From a virus, in IMG/VR virus record IMGVR_UViG_3300042895_000395, positions 1-29,595 of that record: DNA of 29,595 bases. One strand, written 5' to 3'. Below, one piece after another: positions 595 to 14,458 of the stretch (positions are counted from its first letter, which is position 1; each line of letters starts with the position of its first letter). The notes under the pieces were generated by a model. It saw only the letters and a program-made list of their open reading frames with translations, made no database searches and was not told the origin of the DNA. The translations under genes were made by a program, and so were the position numbers.

Positions 595-1661
595 AAGAAG
601 TAAAGCCAAAGCAAACTTTTAGAGTTGCTTCAGTGATTGGTAAATTCGATTTACAATCAGAACACATTATAGAACATTTTAAAGGTAATATTGATATTCC
701 AGAAAAATGGCAGATAGGTTTAATAGTAGGTAAAAGCGGTACTGGTAAAACTACAATAGCAAAGCAATTATTTGAAGATGCTTACATAACTTCGTATAAT
801 TACGATAAAGAAACTATTTTGGATGATATGCCAAAAGAATGTAGTTTAGAAGATATAACTTCCGCTTTTAATTCCGTTGGTTTTTCAAGTCCACCAAGCT
901 GGTTAAAGCCTTATTCTGTTTTATCTAATGGACAAAAAATGAGAGTAGATTTAGCGAGAGCTATATTAGAAAAAAACGATTTATTTGTCTTTGATGAATT
1001 TACAAGCGTAGTAGATAGAAATGTAGCTCAAATAGGTTCTTTTGCGATGCAAAAAGCAATAAGAAAAACCAAAAAACAATTTATAGCAGTTACTTGTCAT
1101 TCAGATGTTGAAGATTGGCTTTTACCTGATTGGATATTTAATACTGATACTATGACCTTTCATTTGCTTGAAGGGCAAAAAAAAAATAGACCAAAAATTA
1201 ATTTTGAAATATACCAAACAAGAGATAAGTCAATATGGAAAATGTTTGCTAAACATCACTATTTAAGTCATACTCATAATAACGCAGCAAATGTTTTTAT
1301 AGCAATGATAAACGGAGAGATAGCTGGGTTTTTAAGTGTGTTACATTTCCCTCATCCTAAAGTTAAAAATATGAAAAAAGTTCATAGATTAGTTATTTTA
1401 CCCGATTATCAAGGAGCAGGAATAGGGTTAAAATTATTGAATGAAGTAGGTACATTTTACAAAAAAGATAAATGGAGATTTAATATAGTTACATCAGCAC
1501 CAAGTTTAATTTATGCTTTAAAAAAATCAAATGAATGGGCGTGTACACATTATGGAAGAAATACTCCACATAAAGGAGATTTAAAAAGTAATGTTGAAAA
1601 TTTAACAAGTGGCTCTGAAAATAGAATAACCGCATCTTTTGAATTAAAAGAAATAAAATGA
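573..1661 (+). CDS. ABC-type ATPase fused to GNAT acetyltransferase-like domain
   Basis: A 362-residue two-domain protein. The N-terminal ABC ATPase has Walker A GKSGTGKT (53-60), signature LSNGQ (117-121), Walker B DLFVFDE (136-142) and an H-loop histidine in TCHSD (176). It has no membrane segment, so it is not a transporter. The C-terminal domain (about 210-362) is GNAT-like: HHYL at 228-231 and the acyl-CoA loop LPDYQGAGIG at 276-285. The Mu Mom DNA-modification enzyme belongs to the GNAT superfamily, so a role in modifying phage DNA, with the ATPase acting on DNA or the reaction, is an inference from fold and from the ParB-like neighbour. Base composition is clearly more A/T-rich than the terminase and tail genes (GAA, AGA, TTT codons prevail), suggesting separate acquisition. 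It starts inside the ParB-like gene and ends ATGA with terminase. Confidence 0.85.
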   Translation: MPTFDIIKEVKPKQTFRVASVIGKFDLQSEHIIEHFKGNIDIPEKWQIGLIVGKSGTGKTTIAKQLFEDAYITSYNYDKETILDDMPKECSLEDITSAFNSVGFSSPPSWLKPYSVLSNGQKMRVDLARAILEKNDLFVFDEFTSVVDRNVAQIGSFAMQKAIRKTKKQFIAVTCHSDVEDWLLPDWIFNTDTMTFHLLEGQKKNRPKINFEIYQTRDKSIWKMFAKHHYLSHTHNNAANVFIAMINGEIAGFLSVLHFPHPKVKNMKKVHRLVILPDYQGAGIGLKLLNEVGTFYKKDKWRFNIVTSAPSLIYALKKSNEWACTHYGRNTPHKGDLKSNVENLTSGSENRITASFELKEIK

Positions 1662-2038
1662 ACCAACAAAATCCAACATTAAAAAGGGCTATGATAGAGG
1701 CTTTAGAAAAGTCACTCGGTATAGTTACCTCAGCTTGTAAATCAGTTGGGATAAATAGGTCTACTCACTACGACTGGCTAAAGACTGACGAGGACTATAA
1801 AGCCGAGGTAGAAAGTATAGAAGATATTGCGATAGACTTTGCAGAGAGTCAACTTCATAAACAGATAAAAGACGGCAACCCTACAAGCACTATTTTCTAC
1901 TTAAAGACTAAAGCTAAAAAGAGAGGTTATATTGAGCGTCAAGAGATACACCAAGAGACAACCTACAAGAGCCTCGATATTAATATAATTGATACTGGCA
2001 TACCTTTAGCATCAAGCGAGAAAGATATACTTGATTAA
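1658..2038 (+). CDS. terS: terminase small subunit
   Basis: A 126-residue protein with an N-terminal helix-turn-helix (about 21-50: GIVTSACKSVGINRSTHYDW) followed by an amphipathic segment, AIDFAESQLHKQIKDGNP, and a charged stretch KAKKRGYIERQE. This is the layout of small terminase subunits that recognise the packaging site and form a ring on DNA. Position directly before the large subunit supports the call. It overlaps the ABC/GNAT gene by 4 nt (ATGA), and its stop overlaps the TTG start of the next gene. Confidence 0.85.
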   Translation: MNQQNPTLKRAMIEALEKSLGIVTSACKSVGINRSTHYDWLKTDEDYKAEVESIEDIAIDFAESQLHKQIKDGNPTSTIFYLKTKAKKRGYIERQEIHQETTYKSLDINIIDTGIPLASSEKDILD

Positions 2039-2396
2039 CACCAGCTCAGTATATCGAAGCAATTTTGCAGCTACTGCGGATATCGTAGTTAATCAGGGTG
2101 GAACATCTTGTTTTGCTGGGACTCAATGCGTAGTTACCTCAGAGGGTTCTAAACCGATTAAAGACATAGAGGTAGGAGATTTAGTTAAATGCTATGACGA
2201 GGCTAAAAAGTCTATCGAGTGGCGTAAGGTATTAAATAAGTTTAAGTACGATAATAGCAAAAGAACTATTAAAGTAACGCTAAAAAATGGGCAGACAATT
2301 ATAGCTACTGAAGACCACAAATTTTATTACGAGGGCGGTTGGTATTCTCTAAAATATATACTATCTTTACAAAATGGAACATTGGAAAAAGATTAA
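2031..2396 (+). CDS. terL: terminase large subunit, N-terminal piece fused to N-half of a split intein
   Basis: 121 residues in two parts. Residues 1-26 are the TerL N-extein and end NQGGTS, the first half of a Walker A P-loop. Residues 27-121 are an intein N-half of 95 residues: it begins with the nucleophile Cys27 (CFAGTQCVVTSEG, block A), continues KDIEVGDLV, and has block B with ATEDH (T93, H96) then KFYYEGGWYSL. The frame stops at 2396, just after block B, where endonuclease domains normally sit or where natural split inteins break. The complementary half is encoded at 2888-4090 in another frame. The only plausible start is TTG at 2031, inside the terS stop; an in-frame TAG lies at 2007-2009 and no ATG follows it. 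Joined to the second piece, the extein reads GGTS+SGKT, an intact P-loop. Confidence 0.88.
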   Translation: MINTSSVYRSNFAATADIVVNQGGTSCFAGTQCVVTSEGSKPIKDIEVGDLVKCYDEAKKSIEWRKVLNKFKYDNSKRTIKVTLKNGQTIIATEDHKFYYEGGWYSLKYILSLQNGTLEKD

Positions 2397-2895
2397 AGGT
2401 TTTAGCGATTACGAGGCGAGTACTCTTGGTAGATTAAGAAGTCTAAACTACAAGCGAACTAACAAGGTTAAAGTTTTAAAGCCTTCTATAAGTGGAGGGT
2501 ATTTAAAGACTATGCTAAAAGACGATAGCGGTAAATATAGAAGCTCTTACGTACACAAATTCGTATGCCTTGCTTTCTTAGGCGATAGACCTACTAAGTA
2601 TGAGATAAACCATATAGACGGATTAAAGATAAATAACTCTATTGAAAACTTGGAGTATATTACTAAGTCTGAAAATATAAAACACGCTTACAAACTTGGG
2701 CTAATATCTGTAAAGGTGGGCAGCTCTAATGGAATGGCTAAACTAACCGAGTCAGATGTTTTAGAGATAAGAGAACACGCAGCAAATAGCGGGCGTTATT
2801 ATGGCAGACAAGTGCTTGCAGAAAAATACAAAGTTTCTGAATGCACAATAAAAGAGGTAGTATCTAAAAGAAGAGGCAAGTTCTATAATGTTTGA
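2374..2895 (+). CDS. free-standing HNH homing endonuclease (NUMOD4 + HNH) between the split-intein halves
   Basis: 173 residues. The N-terminus is NUMOD4-like (WKKIKGFSDYEASTLGRLRSL spans residues 4-24), which is where such free-standing enzymes usually start, so ATG 2374 is convincing. The HNH core runs from H61 through INHIDG (78-83) and NN (87-88) to the NLEY..T..EN..HA motif (92-105). The C-terminal part, AKLTESDVLEIREH then a helix-turn-helix-like LAEKYKVSECTIKEVVSKRR, is a typical DNA-binding tail of phage HNH enzymes. It overlaps the upstream intein half by 23 nt and the downstream one by 8 nt (ATGTTTGA), and is in a third reading frame. The expected role is to cut an uninterrupted terL allele so that the split intein and the enzyme gene spread together. 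Confidence 0.9.
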   Translation: MEHWKKIKGFSDYEASTLGRLRSLNYKRTNKVKVLKPSISGGYLKTMLKDDSGKYRSSYVHKFVCLAFLGDRPTKYEINHIDGLKINNSIENLEYITKSENIKHAYKLGLISVKVGSSNGMAKLTESDVLEIREHAANSGRYYGRQVLAEKYKVSECTIKEVVSKRRGKFYNV

Positions 2896-4090
2896 TTTAA
2901 GCCAAGTAGAAAGCTGGGAGTATGTAGAAGAGCAAATAGTCTACGATATAGAAGTAGAGGACTGCCATAACTATTTTTTAGATGTAGGCTTTGATGTCTT
3001 AGTTCATAACTCAGGAAAAACTTACGCTATACTCCAAGTGCTATTCTCAAAAGCAATAGCAGACACTTGCACTATAACCGTAGTAGGTCAAGATATACCT
3101 AACTTAAAAGTAGGAGCTTTAAGAGATGCTATCGACATTCATAATGCAGATGAGGCTATTAAGCAGCAAGTAACTTTCTACAATCGCTCAGATAGGGTAT
3201 TCACTTTTAAGAATGGGTCTATCATAGAGTTCAATTCTTATGATAACGAGCAAGACGCAAAGTCAGGTAAGAGAGATTATCTATTCGTAAACGAGGCAAA
3301 CGGAATACCCTACAATATATTTGAGCAGTTAAGCCTACGTACTCGCAAGCAAGTCTATTTAGACTATAACCCTGATACAAGCTTTTGGGTTCACGACAAA
3401 ATAATACCTATGCCGAACGCTGAGTTAATAATCTCAGACCATAGGCACAATCCTTTTTTAAGTGATAAGATACGCGAAAAGATAGAAGCTCTAAAAGATA
3501 AGGACTTAGACTTATGGAAGGTATACGCTCGAGGTCGTACCGGTAAGATAGAAGGGCTAATCTTAAAAAAGTGGTACGTATTAAACGAGAGCTTTGACGA
3601 TAAAAACTTAATAGGATATGGCATTGACTTTGGTTTCACTAATGACCCTACTACTTTAGTAGAGGTAAGGCTTCAAGACGGCGAGTTATGGGTAAAGGAG
3701 TTAATATATGAGACTGGGCTAACAAATAGAGATATAAGCGATAGAATGGAGGCTTTAGGCATAAGCAAAGGAGCTTTGATAGTGGCAGATAGTGCCGAGC
3801 CTAAAAGTATAGAAGAGCTTAGGCGTTTACGCTGGACTATTGACGGGGTTAAGAAGGGAGCAGATAGTATAATGTTTGGAATTAACTTGCTAAAAGGTTA
3901 TTCAATTAACGTACATTCGTCAAGTAAAAATTTAATAAAAGAATTGGAGCAGTATAAGTGGAAGGTAGACAGAAACGGAGATAGTTTAAACGTTCCGATA
4001 GACGGCTATAATCACGCAATAGACGCACTTAGGTATTTAATAATGCACAAATTTAGTAAGAAAGGATATGGAACATACAAAGTTATCTAA
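2888..4090 (+). CDS. terL: C-half of split intein fused to terminase large subunit (ATPase-nuclease)
   Basis: 400 residues. Residues 1-41 are an intein C-half: block F VYDIEVEDCHNYFL (18-31) and block G VLVHN (37-41), with penultimate His40 and terminal Asn41, followed by Ser42 as the +1 residue. The TerL C-extein then begins SGKTYAILQ. Further TerL motifs are the Walker B-like YLFVNEAN (131-138), LDYNPD (158-163), nuclease acidic residues in GIDFGFTNDPT (D247), IVADSAEP (D301) and NHAIDALRY (D379). After splicing with the 26-residue N-extein the enzyme would be 385 residues, a normal length for this family. The ATG at 2888 overlaps the stop of the HNH gene; an in-frame TAG at 2858-2860 excludes a longer form. 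Confidence 0.92.
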   Translation: MFDLSQVESWEYVEEQIVYDIEVEDCHNYFLDVGFDVLVHNSGKTYAILQVLFSKAIADTCTITVVGQDIPNLKVGALRDAIDIHNADEAIKQQVTFYNRSDRVFTFKNGSIIEFNSYDNEQDAKSGKRDYLFVNEANGIPYNIFEQLSLRTRKQVYLDYNPDTSFWVHDKIIPMPNAELIISDHRHNPFLSDKIREKIEALKDKDLDLWKVYARGRTGKIEGLILKKWYVLNESFDDKNLIGYGIDFGFTNDPTTLVEVRLQDGELWVKELIYETGLTNRDISDRMEALGISKGALIVADSAEPKSIEELRRLRWTIDGVKKGADSIMFGINLLKGYSINVHSSSKNLIKELEQYKWKVDRNGDSLNVPIDGYNHAIDALRYLIMHKFSKKGYGTYKVI

Positions 4091-12320: not shown

Positions 12321-12378
12321 CTATTTATTTATAAAAGTTTATTGCCCCTTGTTTATTCCTATCGTATATACTTTAAGA

Positions 12379-13509
12379 ATGGATTTGCCTTTTATCGAAT
12401 TTAAGCTAAGCGATGACGTCGAAGGACTGCAAGCGATAGCCTTTGTAGATGCTCCCGCTATTGGATTAAACTATCAGGCTTTTGCCCCGCATAAGTTTGA
12501 AATAATTAACGAGGAAAAAAGAATAGTAATGGGTGCAGCTATGATACCTGACCTACCTATTTATCGTAGAGACGAGAGAGGCGAGTACTATGCTATATTC
12601 CGTAAGGAAACTATAAAGGCGTTGGTACAAAAGCTATTCAAAGAAAACAAACACAACAATTTTAACGAGCAGCACAACGCTTTTAAGATATTAGATGGAG
12701 TATATATCTACCAATCTTTTATTACTGACCAAGAACTCGGCATTTTAGCCCCCAAAGGTTTTGAGAACGTAGCAGACGGTACTTGGTTTATCGCTGCAAA
12801 AGTAGAGAATGACGAGGCTTGGTCTAAAGTTAAAGAAGACGGAATCCTAAAAGGATTTAGCGTTGAGGGTGTTTTCGATTTAGAACCGTACAAATTTAAA
12901 AAAATGAATAAAATCAATTTAGAAAGCGTAATAAATACGCTCAAGTCTGTATTTTCAGACGAAGAGGTAGCGGCTGAGGAAAAAATCTTCGGTGAGGCTG
13001 CTTTAGTAGACGGAACTATTGTAAAATGGGAAGGCGAACTAATGGAAGGTACTGCGATAACCGTAGTATTACCTGAAGGTGAAGTAGCAGCCCCTGACGG
13101 TATCCACGAAGTATCTGACGGAACTATTATCGAGACCGCTGGAGGCTTAGTAGTAAACATCCAACCGATGAGCGAAATTGCAAGTGAAGAAAACGAGTTC
13201 ACTACTGAGATGCTTAACGAAATGGTAGAGAAAGCTCTTGCAAAATATGCTGAGGCTTTTACTGCTACTTTAGAAGGTGTTAAAGCTGAGAACGCTGGTC
13301 TTAAATTAGAGCTTGCAGCTATCGTAGCTGACAAAGAAAGTTTAAAAAAAGAATTTAGCGCAACTTTAAGTAAGGTAGGTACTGAGCTTGAAGAAATCGT
13401 AAAGAGTGAGGCGGCTACCTCTTCAAAGCCACAAGAATTTAAAGCGCAATCAAGAGCCGAAAAAGCGGCTGCTATGGGTGCGGTTATCAGAGCAAACAAA
13501 TTAAAATAA
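12379..13509 (+). CDS. prohead protease-scaffold fusion (XkdF-like)
   Basis: 376 residues from the ATG at 12379; an in-frame TTG at 12349 would add ten residues but is less likely. The N-terminal part (LPFIEFKLSDDVEGLQAIAF, VDAPAIG, GAAMIPDLPIYR) matches XkdF-like phage serine proteases that mature the capsid; LKGFSVEG is a further typical strand. From about residue 175 the protein changes to an acidic, helical scaffold-like region (MNKINLESVINTLKSVF, then an Ala/Glu/Lys coiled coil ending in QSRAEKAAAMGAVIRANK). The major capsid gene follows 10 nt downstream. An in-frame ATG at 12904 probably gives a separate scaffold. Confidence 0.75.
   Translation: MDLPFIEFKLSDDVEGLQAIAFVDAPAIGLNYQAFAPHKFEIINEEKRIVMGAAMIPDLPIYRRDERGEYYAIFRKETIKALVQKLFKENKHNNFNEQHNAFKILDGVYIYQSFITDQELGILAPKGFENVADGTWFIAAKVENDEAWSKVKEDGILKGFSVEGVFDLEPYKFKKMNKINLESVINTLKSVFSDEEVAAEEKIFGEAALVDGTIVKWEGELMEGTAITVVLPEGEVAAPDGIHEVSDGTIIETAGGLVVNIQPMSEIASEENEFTTEMLNEMVEKALAKYAEAFTATLEGVKAENAGLKLELAAIVADKESLKKEFSATLSKVGTELEEIVKSEAATSSKPQEFKAQSRAEKAAAMGAVIRANKLK
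12904..13509 (+). CDS. possible internal scaffold start (nested gene)
   Basis: An ATG at 12904 in the same frame as the protease is preceded by AAATTTAAAAAA, the A-rich leader type that favours initiation in Bacteroidota. It would give a 201-residue acidic, coiled-coil protein without the protease domain, analogous to lambda Nu3 inside gene C. The evidence is only the start context and the domain boundary falling at the same point. Confidence 0.4.
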   Translation: MNKINLESVINTLKSVFSDEEVAAEEKIFGEAALVDGTIVKWEGELMEGTAITVVLPEGEVAAPDGIHEVSDGTIIETAGGLVVNIQPMSEIASEENEFTTEMLNEMVEKALAKYAEAFTATLEGVKAENAGLKLELAAIVADKESLKKEFSATLSKVGTELEEIVKSEAATSSKPQEFKAQSRAEKAAAMGAVIRANKLK

Positions 13510-13519
13510 ATAAACAAAA

Positions 13520-14458
13520 ATGGCATTTAATGTATCGTCGCTTACTAACTACGTAAACGAACAATCAACGGACCTAATCTCGAGATTATACTTCGAGAAA
13601 ACTTCAAGTGATTATTTCACTTTACAATCAGGCGTTAAAAAAACTGACGCTTTACACCTTTTAGCAGTAACTGCTTTTCCTCAGGATGGTAGCGGATGTT
13701 CTCCGACTGCTTCAGGTAGTGTAGTGTTTACTAACAGAGACATCACCGTAGGTCAAATCACTTACTTTGACGGTTTTTGTATGAAAGACCTTATCCCTAA
13801 ATATACTCAAATCTTGCTAAGAGCTGGTAACGCTGAAACTGAGGATATGGCTTTTGAAGCTGAGGTTGCTGATTCTATAATCAAAACTATTATGGAGCAT
13901 AACGAGACTGCTGATTGGCAAGGAGATACTGCTTCAGGTAACGTATTTATCAATAGATATGACGGACTTATCAAAATAATCGGTGCCGCTGGTACTGCTA
14001 TCGCTGGCAATACTTCTGCCGCTACTTCTATCACTTCAGGCGCTTCAGGTAACGTAGATACTATAATCAATAACATCTGTAACGCAAGACCAGCGAAAGT
14101 TAAGTCTGCTCTTAACCAAGTGTTATTCGTAGGTCAAGATACTTTTGACAAATTCGTAGATACTTTAAACGCTAAAAATCTATTTAACGTAGACGCTACT
14201 TCTTGGGCTAACTACTCAGTATCTATCCCAGGTAAAAACGTTACTTTGGTAGGTGTTGTAGGTCTTGACGGTACTAACAGAATGTTCCTTGGAACTTCAG
14301 ATAACTTCTTCTTAGGTTTTGACTTACAAAATGACGAAGAAGAATTTGATATGTGGTACGAAAAACTTGAAGACAAAGTTTACTACAGAGTTAAATTTAA
14401 GAGAGGTTTACAAGTAGCTTACCCTAACGAAATCGTTCAGTTTACCTTATCGGCATAG
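13520..14458 (+). CDS. major capsid protein (HK97 fold)
   Basis: 312 residues. The closing segment GLDGTNRMFLGTSDNFFLGF, DLQNDEEEFDMWYEKLEDKVYYRVKFKRGLQVAYPNEIV (about 251-307) is typical of Bacteroidota phage major capsid proteins. Unlike its neighbours it often uses C-ending codons (ATC, AAC, GAC), as expected for a very highly expressed gene. It follows the protease-scaffold at 10 nt, with an A-rich leader (AATAAATAAACAAAA). No separate delta domain was recognised beyond the first 60 residues. Confidence 0.85.
   Translation: MAFNVSSLTNYVNEQSTDLISRLYFEKTSSDYFTLQSGVKKTDALHLLAVTAFPQDGSGCSPTASGSVVFTNRDITVGQITYFDGFCMKDLIPKYTQILLRAGNAETEDMAFEAEVADSIIKTIMEHNETADWQGDTASGNVFINRYDGLIKIIGAAGTAIAGNTSAATSITSGASGNVDTIINNICNARPAKVKSALNQVLFVGQDTFDKFVDTLNAKNLFNVDATSWANYSVSIPGKNVTLVGVVGLDGTNRMFLGTSDNFFLGFDLQNDEEEFDMWYEKLEDKVYYRVKFKRGLQVAYPNEIVQFTLSA

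Follow-up and report, generated by a model that had tools for sequence, protein, structure and literature searches.

The window analysed here is the entire IMG/VR entry IMGVR_UViG_3300042895_000395, a stretch of 29,595 bases of viral DNA in which the large subunit of the terminase (TerL) is encoded by two open reading frames (ORFs) that enclose a third. All three lie on the plus strand, in three different frames: 2031-2396 (TTG start, 121 aa), 2374-2895 (ATG, 173 aa) and 2888-4090 (ATG, 400 aa). The first comprises a TerL N-extein of 26 aa (2031-2108) that ends in VVNQGGTS, the first half of a Walker A motif, and that is identical or near-identical to the continuous N-termini of intein-free relatives. 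It is followed by an intein N-fragment of 95 aa (2109-2393), whose first residue, Cys1, is Cys27 of the ORF, and which carries a TEDH block B and runs to a stop codon at 2394-2396. The middle ORF (2374-2895) is a free-standing gene for a NUMOD4-HNH endonuclease, with its own ATG and in frame +1 relative to the N-half. The third starts with an intein C-fragment of 41 aa (2888-3010) ending in VLVHN, and continues into a TerL C-extein of 359 aa (3011-4090), which begins with SGKT, the second half of the Walker A motif, and holds the ATPase and RNase H-like nuclease domains.

Each piece finds its expected family. The intein N-fragment matches PT-HINT (5e-7) and Intein_splicing (4e-6), and the C-fragment, which is kept in relatives, matches Intein_splicing (0.004). 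The middle ORF matches NUMOD4 (3e-9), HNH_3 (4e-11) and PHROG 59 (4.5e-41), with both motifs intact, and the C-extein matches Terminase_3 (1.1e-9) and Terminase_3C (3.6e-19). Alignment shows that the catalytic residues Cys1, TxxH, the C-terminal His-Asn and Ser+1 are all present. The original prediction, made from the letters of the DNA, had placed TerL in two genes carrying a 95-residue and a 41-residue intein half, with a complete NUMOD4-HNH gene between them and the pieces in three frames, and both the ORFs and the Pfam matches agree with it. A single continuous frame through the intein region is excluded by the 21 stops that the N-half frame meets across the HNH gene.

As the source is a metagenomic contig, the intein might in truth be continuous and its broken frames the product of faulty assembly or sequencing. 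We give this explanation practically no credence, in view of these stops and of the independent copies that refute it: five more IMG/VR contigs, which bear different dataset numbers, contain an exact copy of the 896 bp that span the intein and the HNH gene, two others (L026 and L087 in our numbering) match this stretch at 94-95% identity, and L072 keeps the three-ORF layout at 71.5% nucleotide identity. Because identical and divergent independent contigs keep this layout, the frames are not a sequencing artefact.

The empty site is equally well defined. About 70 of 80 close TerL relatives are uninterrupted and read VVNQGGTS/SGKTYAILQV, where the stroke marks the position of the intein; the insertion site is therefore exact, and joining the exteins (GGTS+SGKT) gives, just as had been predicted, an exact Walker A motif, the one that these relatives carry.

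The joined intein halves find their best solved-structure match in gp41-1 (6qaz, E 1.3e-8), although 38 bits represent low sequence similarity. In the alignment, the break in the window (95/41 aa) falls at the natural split position of gp41-1, so that the canonical split anticipated by the original prediction is borne out; the two differ in their exteins, the gp41 helicase in one case and TerL in the other. A structure model of the N-half, built from 14 family sequences (mean predicted local distance difference test score 67), matches Npu DnaE N (4e-4) and gp41-1 (4e-3), and its best structural matches include the native split Npu DnaE N, Npu DnaE, gp41-1 and NrdJ-1. By its residues, its break site and its modelled Hint fold, the element qualifies as a canonical gp41-1-like split intein.

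Natural split inteins in phage TerL are already known from AceL TerL and GOS TerL, and the window shares this character with them. However, these are broken atypically, after the first helix, with an N-fragment of ~25 aa in AceL TerL, in line with the atypical break that the original prediction had ascribed to AceL TerL, whereas the window has an N-fragment of 95 aa and a canonical site; the passages on AceL TerL and GOS TerL mention no HNH gene between the halves, while the window has one (PMC13014065). Inteins in the TerL P-loop, as in the window, are represented by TerL1-a and TerL1-b of mycobacteriophages, which are reported without mention of split inteins; TerL1-a is inserted between Lys and Thr of Walker A, whereas the window intein lies before S-G-K (PMC5050341).

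The ORFs overlap by 23 nt between the N-half and the HNH gene and by 8 nt between the HNH stop and the C-half ATG, with a frame step of +1 at both junctions. NUMOD4-HNH genes are often located in group I introns. The HNH gene might accordingly sit in a self-splicing RNA intron within a cis intein, the mRNA being rejoined to give one protein, and a terL intron is indeed known in phage ICP1 (PMC10448857). However, Rfam gave no match at the gathering score over the whole window, nor at E values up to 5 over 1900-3200, where a catalytic RNA core around the HNH gene would be expected. Moreover, the overlaps of the ORFs leave no room for noncoding intron sequence, and the overlapping three-ORF layout is kept across the family of loci described below, which makes an intron extremely unlikely. 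The same overlaps, with their +1 step at each junction, would also suit programmed frameshifting, in which two shifts produce one continuous cis intein with an in-frame HNH domain. This would require two efficient shifts, and it is unneeded for a conserved split at the gp41-1 site. Both the HNH gene and the C-half possess an ATG where they meet the preceding ORF. Frame steps vary within the family (+1/+1, +1/+2, +2/+2), so that no conserved shift is possible, and we regard this explanation, too, as highly improbable.

A further alternative is that terL is dead at this locus, with a decaying intein and a frameshifted endonuclease region, and that packaging is carried out by another terL. Two frame changes in one intein might point this way, as might the unproven completeness of the record, in which we found no exact terminal repeat of 16-200 nt. 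However, the ratio of non-synonymous to synonymous substitution rates (dN/dS) is 0.04-0.10 for the N-intein and the HNH gene between the window and L026/L087, and the C-fragment has zero amino-acid changes in the same comparison. Against L072, it is ~0.15-0.17 for both intein fragments, with the synonymous rate (dS) near saturation. This purifying selection on all pieces, together with the intact catalytic residues and the persistence of the layout at 71% nucleotide identity and over more than 20 loci, makes a dead gene very unlikely. An intact copy elsewhere, which the original prediction had named as a thing to look for, was not found in the 29,595-base record; this holds one terL only.

Divergence patterns also suggest that the intein and the HNH gene form a mobile cassette. 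When the window is compared with L026/L087, the intein and HNH gene have a dS of 0.15-0.32 and the TerL C-extein one of 0.92-0.98, and nucleotide identity is 94-95% in the cassette and ~87% in the C-extein. The TerL genes of carriers are no nearer to each other than to intein-free alleles. Between the window and L100, the HNH gene is 72% identical and the intein 67-71%, but TerL only 47%. Since the cassette is far less diverged than the flanking TerL, it appears to move between terL alleles. The intein tree and the HNH tree, both short and weakly supported at many nodes, broadly agree, and both parts therefore seem to travel as a unit.

Taken together, the ORF family matches, the match to gp41-1 with its split, the exact empty site, the conserved layout and residues, purifying selection and mobility lead us to conclude that the window very probably holds a fractured terL, whose product is reassembled by a trans-splicing split intein, together with a homing endonuclease gene. 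TerL would be made as two polypeptides, an N-half with the 95-aa fragment (Cys1, TxxH) and a C-half with the 41-aa fragment (HN, Ser+1). As their anatomy and conservation suggest, the two fragments would come together as a single Hint domain, and their trans-splicing would link GGTS to SGKT and so complete the Walker A loop in a TerL of 385 aa. The middle gene would give a separate NUMOD4-HNH homing endonuclease, and the start/stop overlaps may let the three ORFs be translated from one transcript. The most likely target of this endonuclease is an uninterrupted terL in a co-infecting phage, which it would cleave close to the codons of the P-loop; the entire intein-HNH cassette would then be copied in during repair of the cut gene, a mobility that the divergence patterns support.

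Several points weigh against this interpretation. Splicing, endonuclease action and expression are all deduced from the genes, as is the homing target of the HNH protein; identity does not clearly increase in the flanks beside the site, as it would in a co-conversion tract; and the record is possibly incomplete, so that an intact terL may exist elsewhere in the genome. The named TerLs nearest to that of the record include those of Flavobacterium and Parabacteroides phages, at 38-40% identity, which may point to the Bacteroidota host named in the original prediction.

The arrangement resembles the 'fractured genes' reported by Dassa et al. in 2009, conserved phage enzyme genes interrupted by a split intein whose two halves flank a free-standing endonuclease gene. 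Reportedly, about half of those loci carry Vsr-like nucleases, and their targets are enzymes of DNA synthesis and repair. The window likewise has one conserved enzyme in two ORFs with intein halves and a separate endonuclease gene between them, but it would differ from those loci in its target, the TerL P-loop, and in its NUMOD4-HNH nuclease. What would thus be new in the window is the canonical split together with the TerL P-loop and the NUMOD4-HNH gene. A phage gene with a split intein and an HNH gene between the halves is also found in the PolB of phage vB_PaeM_MIJ3; this differs from the window in being a DNA polymerase B in a jumbo Pseudomonas phage, with an intein of other sequence that does not lie in a P-loop (PMC6892783).

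The original prediction understated the find, as the element in the window is one of a family. We searched IMG/VR for relatives of the C-half and of the HNH protein and for DNA encoding LVHN followed by SGK[S/T], and classified the loci with profiles; the resulting counts are lower bounds. At least 23 fractured loci, the window included, have a NUMOD4-HNH gene between intein halves (22 tabulated, plus L437). All aligned members of this kind are inserted at one Walker A position, GxxX/S[G/S]K[S/T], and keep C1, TxxH, HN and S+1 throughout. Two of the 22 tabulated loci, L238 and L325, have N-half and HNH gene in one frame with a stop between them; in the other 20, 13-43 stops interrupt the N-half frame over the length of the HNH gene. 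In most tabulated loci, the C-half ATG lies before the HNH stop, with an overlap of 8, 16 or 19 nt. Among the C-exteins tested, those of L236, L238 and L239 are terminases and those of L104, L106, L244 and L336 are DnaB-like helicases or primase-helicases; further TerL assignments are based on sequence similarity judged by eye. The P-loop of DnaB-like helicases or primase-helicases is fractured in the same way in L104, L106, L182, L244, L336 and L437 (L182 and L437 by similarity only).

Cis mini-inteins without an HNH gene occur at the identical position in L103, L317, L334 and L348, and at a similar site in L111. The TerL of L103 (206-2542) apparently has, in addition to its P-loop cis mini-intein, a second intein further downstream in the protein. 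Other variants were also observed. In L327 (1837-3668), what separates the intein halves of a broken TerL is an unrelated small Cys-rich ORF (2181-2411) and no endonuclease. In L353 (2792-4900), from a Campylobacterales metagenome-assembled genome, intein halves split a Zeta-toxin-like P-loop gene, and the homing endonuclease between them is of another, GIY-YIG-like kind. Free-standing HNH relatives lie directly upstream of an intact, intein-free TerL in L240, L242 and L248, as in collaborative homing. Among named phages, 50,697 records contain no match to three C-half queries, the N-half finds only distant inteins, and the HNH protein finds only generic NUMOD4-HNH relatives at <60% identity. 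In GTDB genomes, the best matches are mostly cis inteins, with one fractured P-loop gene, that of L353.

Seven further loci have one continuous P-loop intein ORF with the NUMOD4-HNH gene inside it in the +1 frame: L164 (2604-4745), L245 (3113-4261), L337 (7319-9535), L441 (3682-5841, minus strand), L449 (3155-5386), L451 (3149-4495) and L452 (348-2588). Over the 160-176 codons of these overprinted HNH genes, the intein frame has 0 stops and the other alternative frame 17-20. When the HNH genes are shuffled synonymously, one by one, the mean number of stops is 5.1-11.1, and the probability of 0 stops is 0.00165 for L164, 0.0009 for L441, 1e-4 for L449 and <5e-5 for each of L245, L337, L451 and L452. 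HNH segments were tested in two groups, one of 70 segments with a length of 140 aa or more and one of 65; in none but these seven is the +1 frame open. As 5-11 stops would be expected and none is seen, both reading frames appear to be held open by selection. A narrowly worded search of the full-text literature found no description of an out-of-frame endonuclease gene in an intein, and this overprinted architecture and the family-wide targeting of the P-loop are the more novel parts of our findings.

The rest of the record is that of an ordinary phage, with TerS, head protease, portal, tail protein, ERF recombinase and amidase. The terS gene (1658-2038, plus strand; PHROG terminase small subunit, 6.6e-8) is the upstream neighbour of the terL N-half, the two genes overlapping where terS stops and the N-half begins with TTG. 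Just upstream of terS, 70-1661 encodes a ParB-like protein and a fusion of an ABC-ATPase with a GNAT acetyltransferase; other, unrelated-looking ORFs take their place in L072, and in L088 a methyltransferase-like ORF immediately precedes terL. Elsewhere in the record, two long ORFs overlap on opposite strands over 12349-13526, an XkdF-like protease (12349-13509, plus) and an ORF of 272 aa (12708-13526, minus).

On balance, we lean towards regarding these loci as a previously unrecognised family of phage inteins that invade TerLs and DnaB-type helicases, always at the Walker A site, between its first four residues and S-[G/S]-K-[S/T], and that carry a usually out-of-frame NUMOD4-HNH gene. This gene is either placed between fractured halves (at least 23 loci) or overprinted in a cis intein (seven loci). 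Together with the HNH-less cis mini-inteins, these would form a natural series for how insertion of an out-of-frame endonuclease creates split inteins. The graded architectures (cis mini, overprinted, fractured, and fractured with another middle gene) make this origin directly testable, and protein engineering could draw on the family for natural Cys/Ser inteins with a canonical split. A homing gene that occupies an intein's second frame would represent a novel way of nesting one selfish gene in another. For the phages themselves, an essential and usually single-copy motor would depend on two proteins meeting and splicing inside its ATP-binding loop, in carriers that co-circulate with nearly identical uninterrupted alleles.
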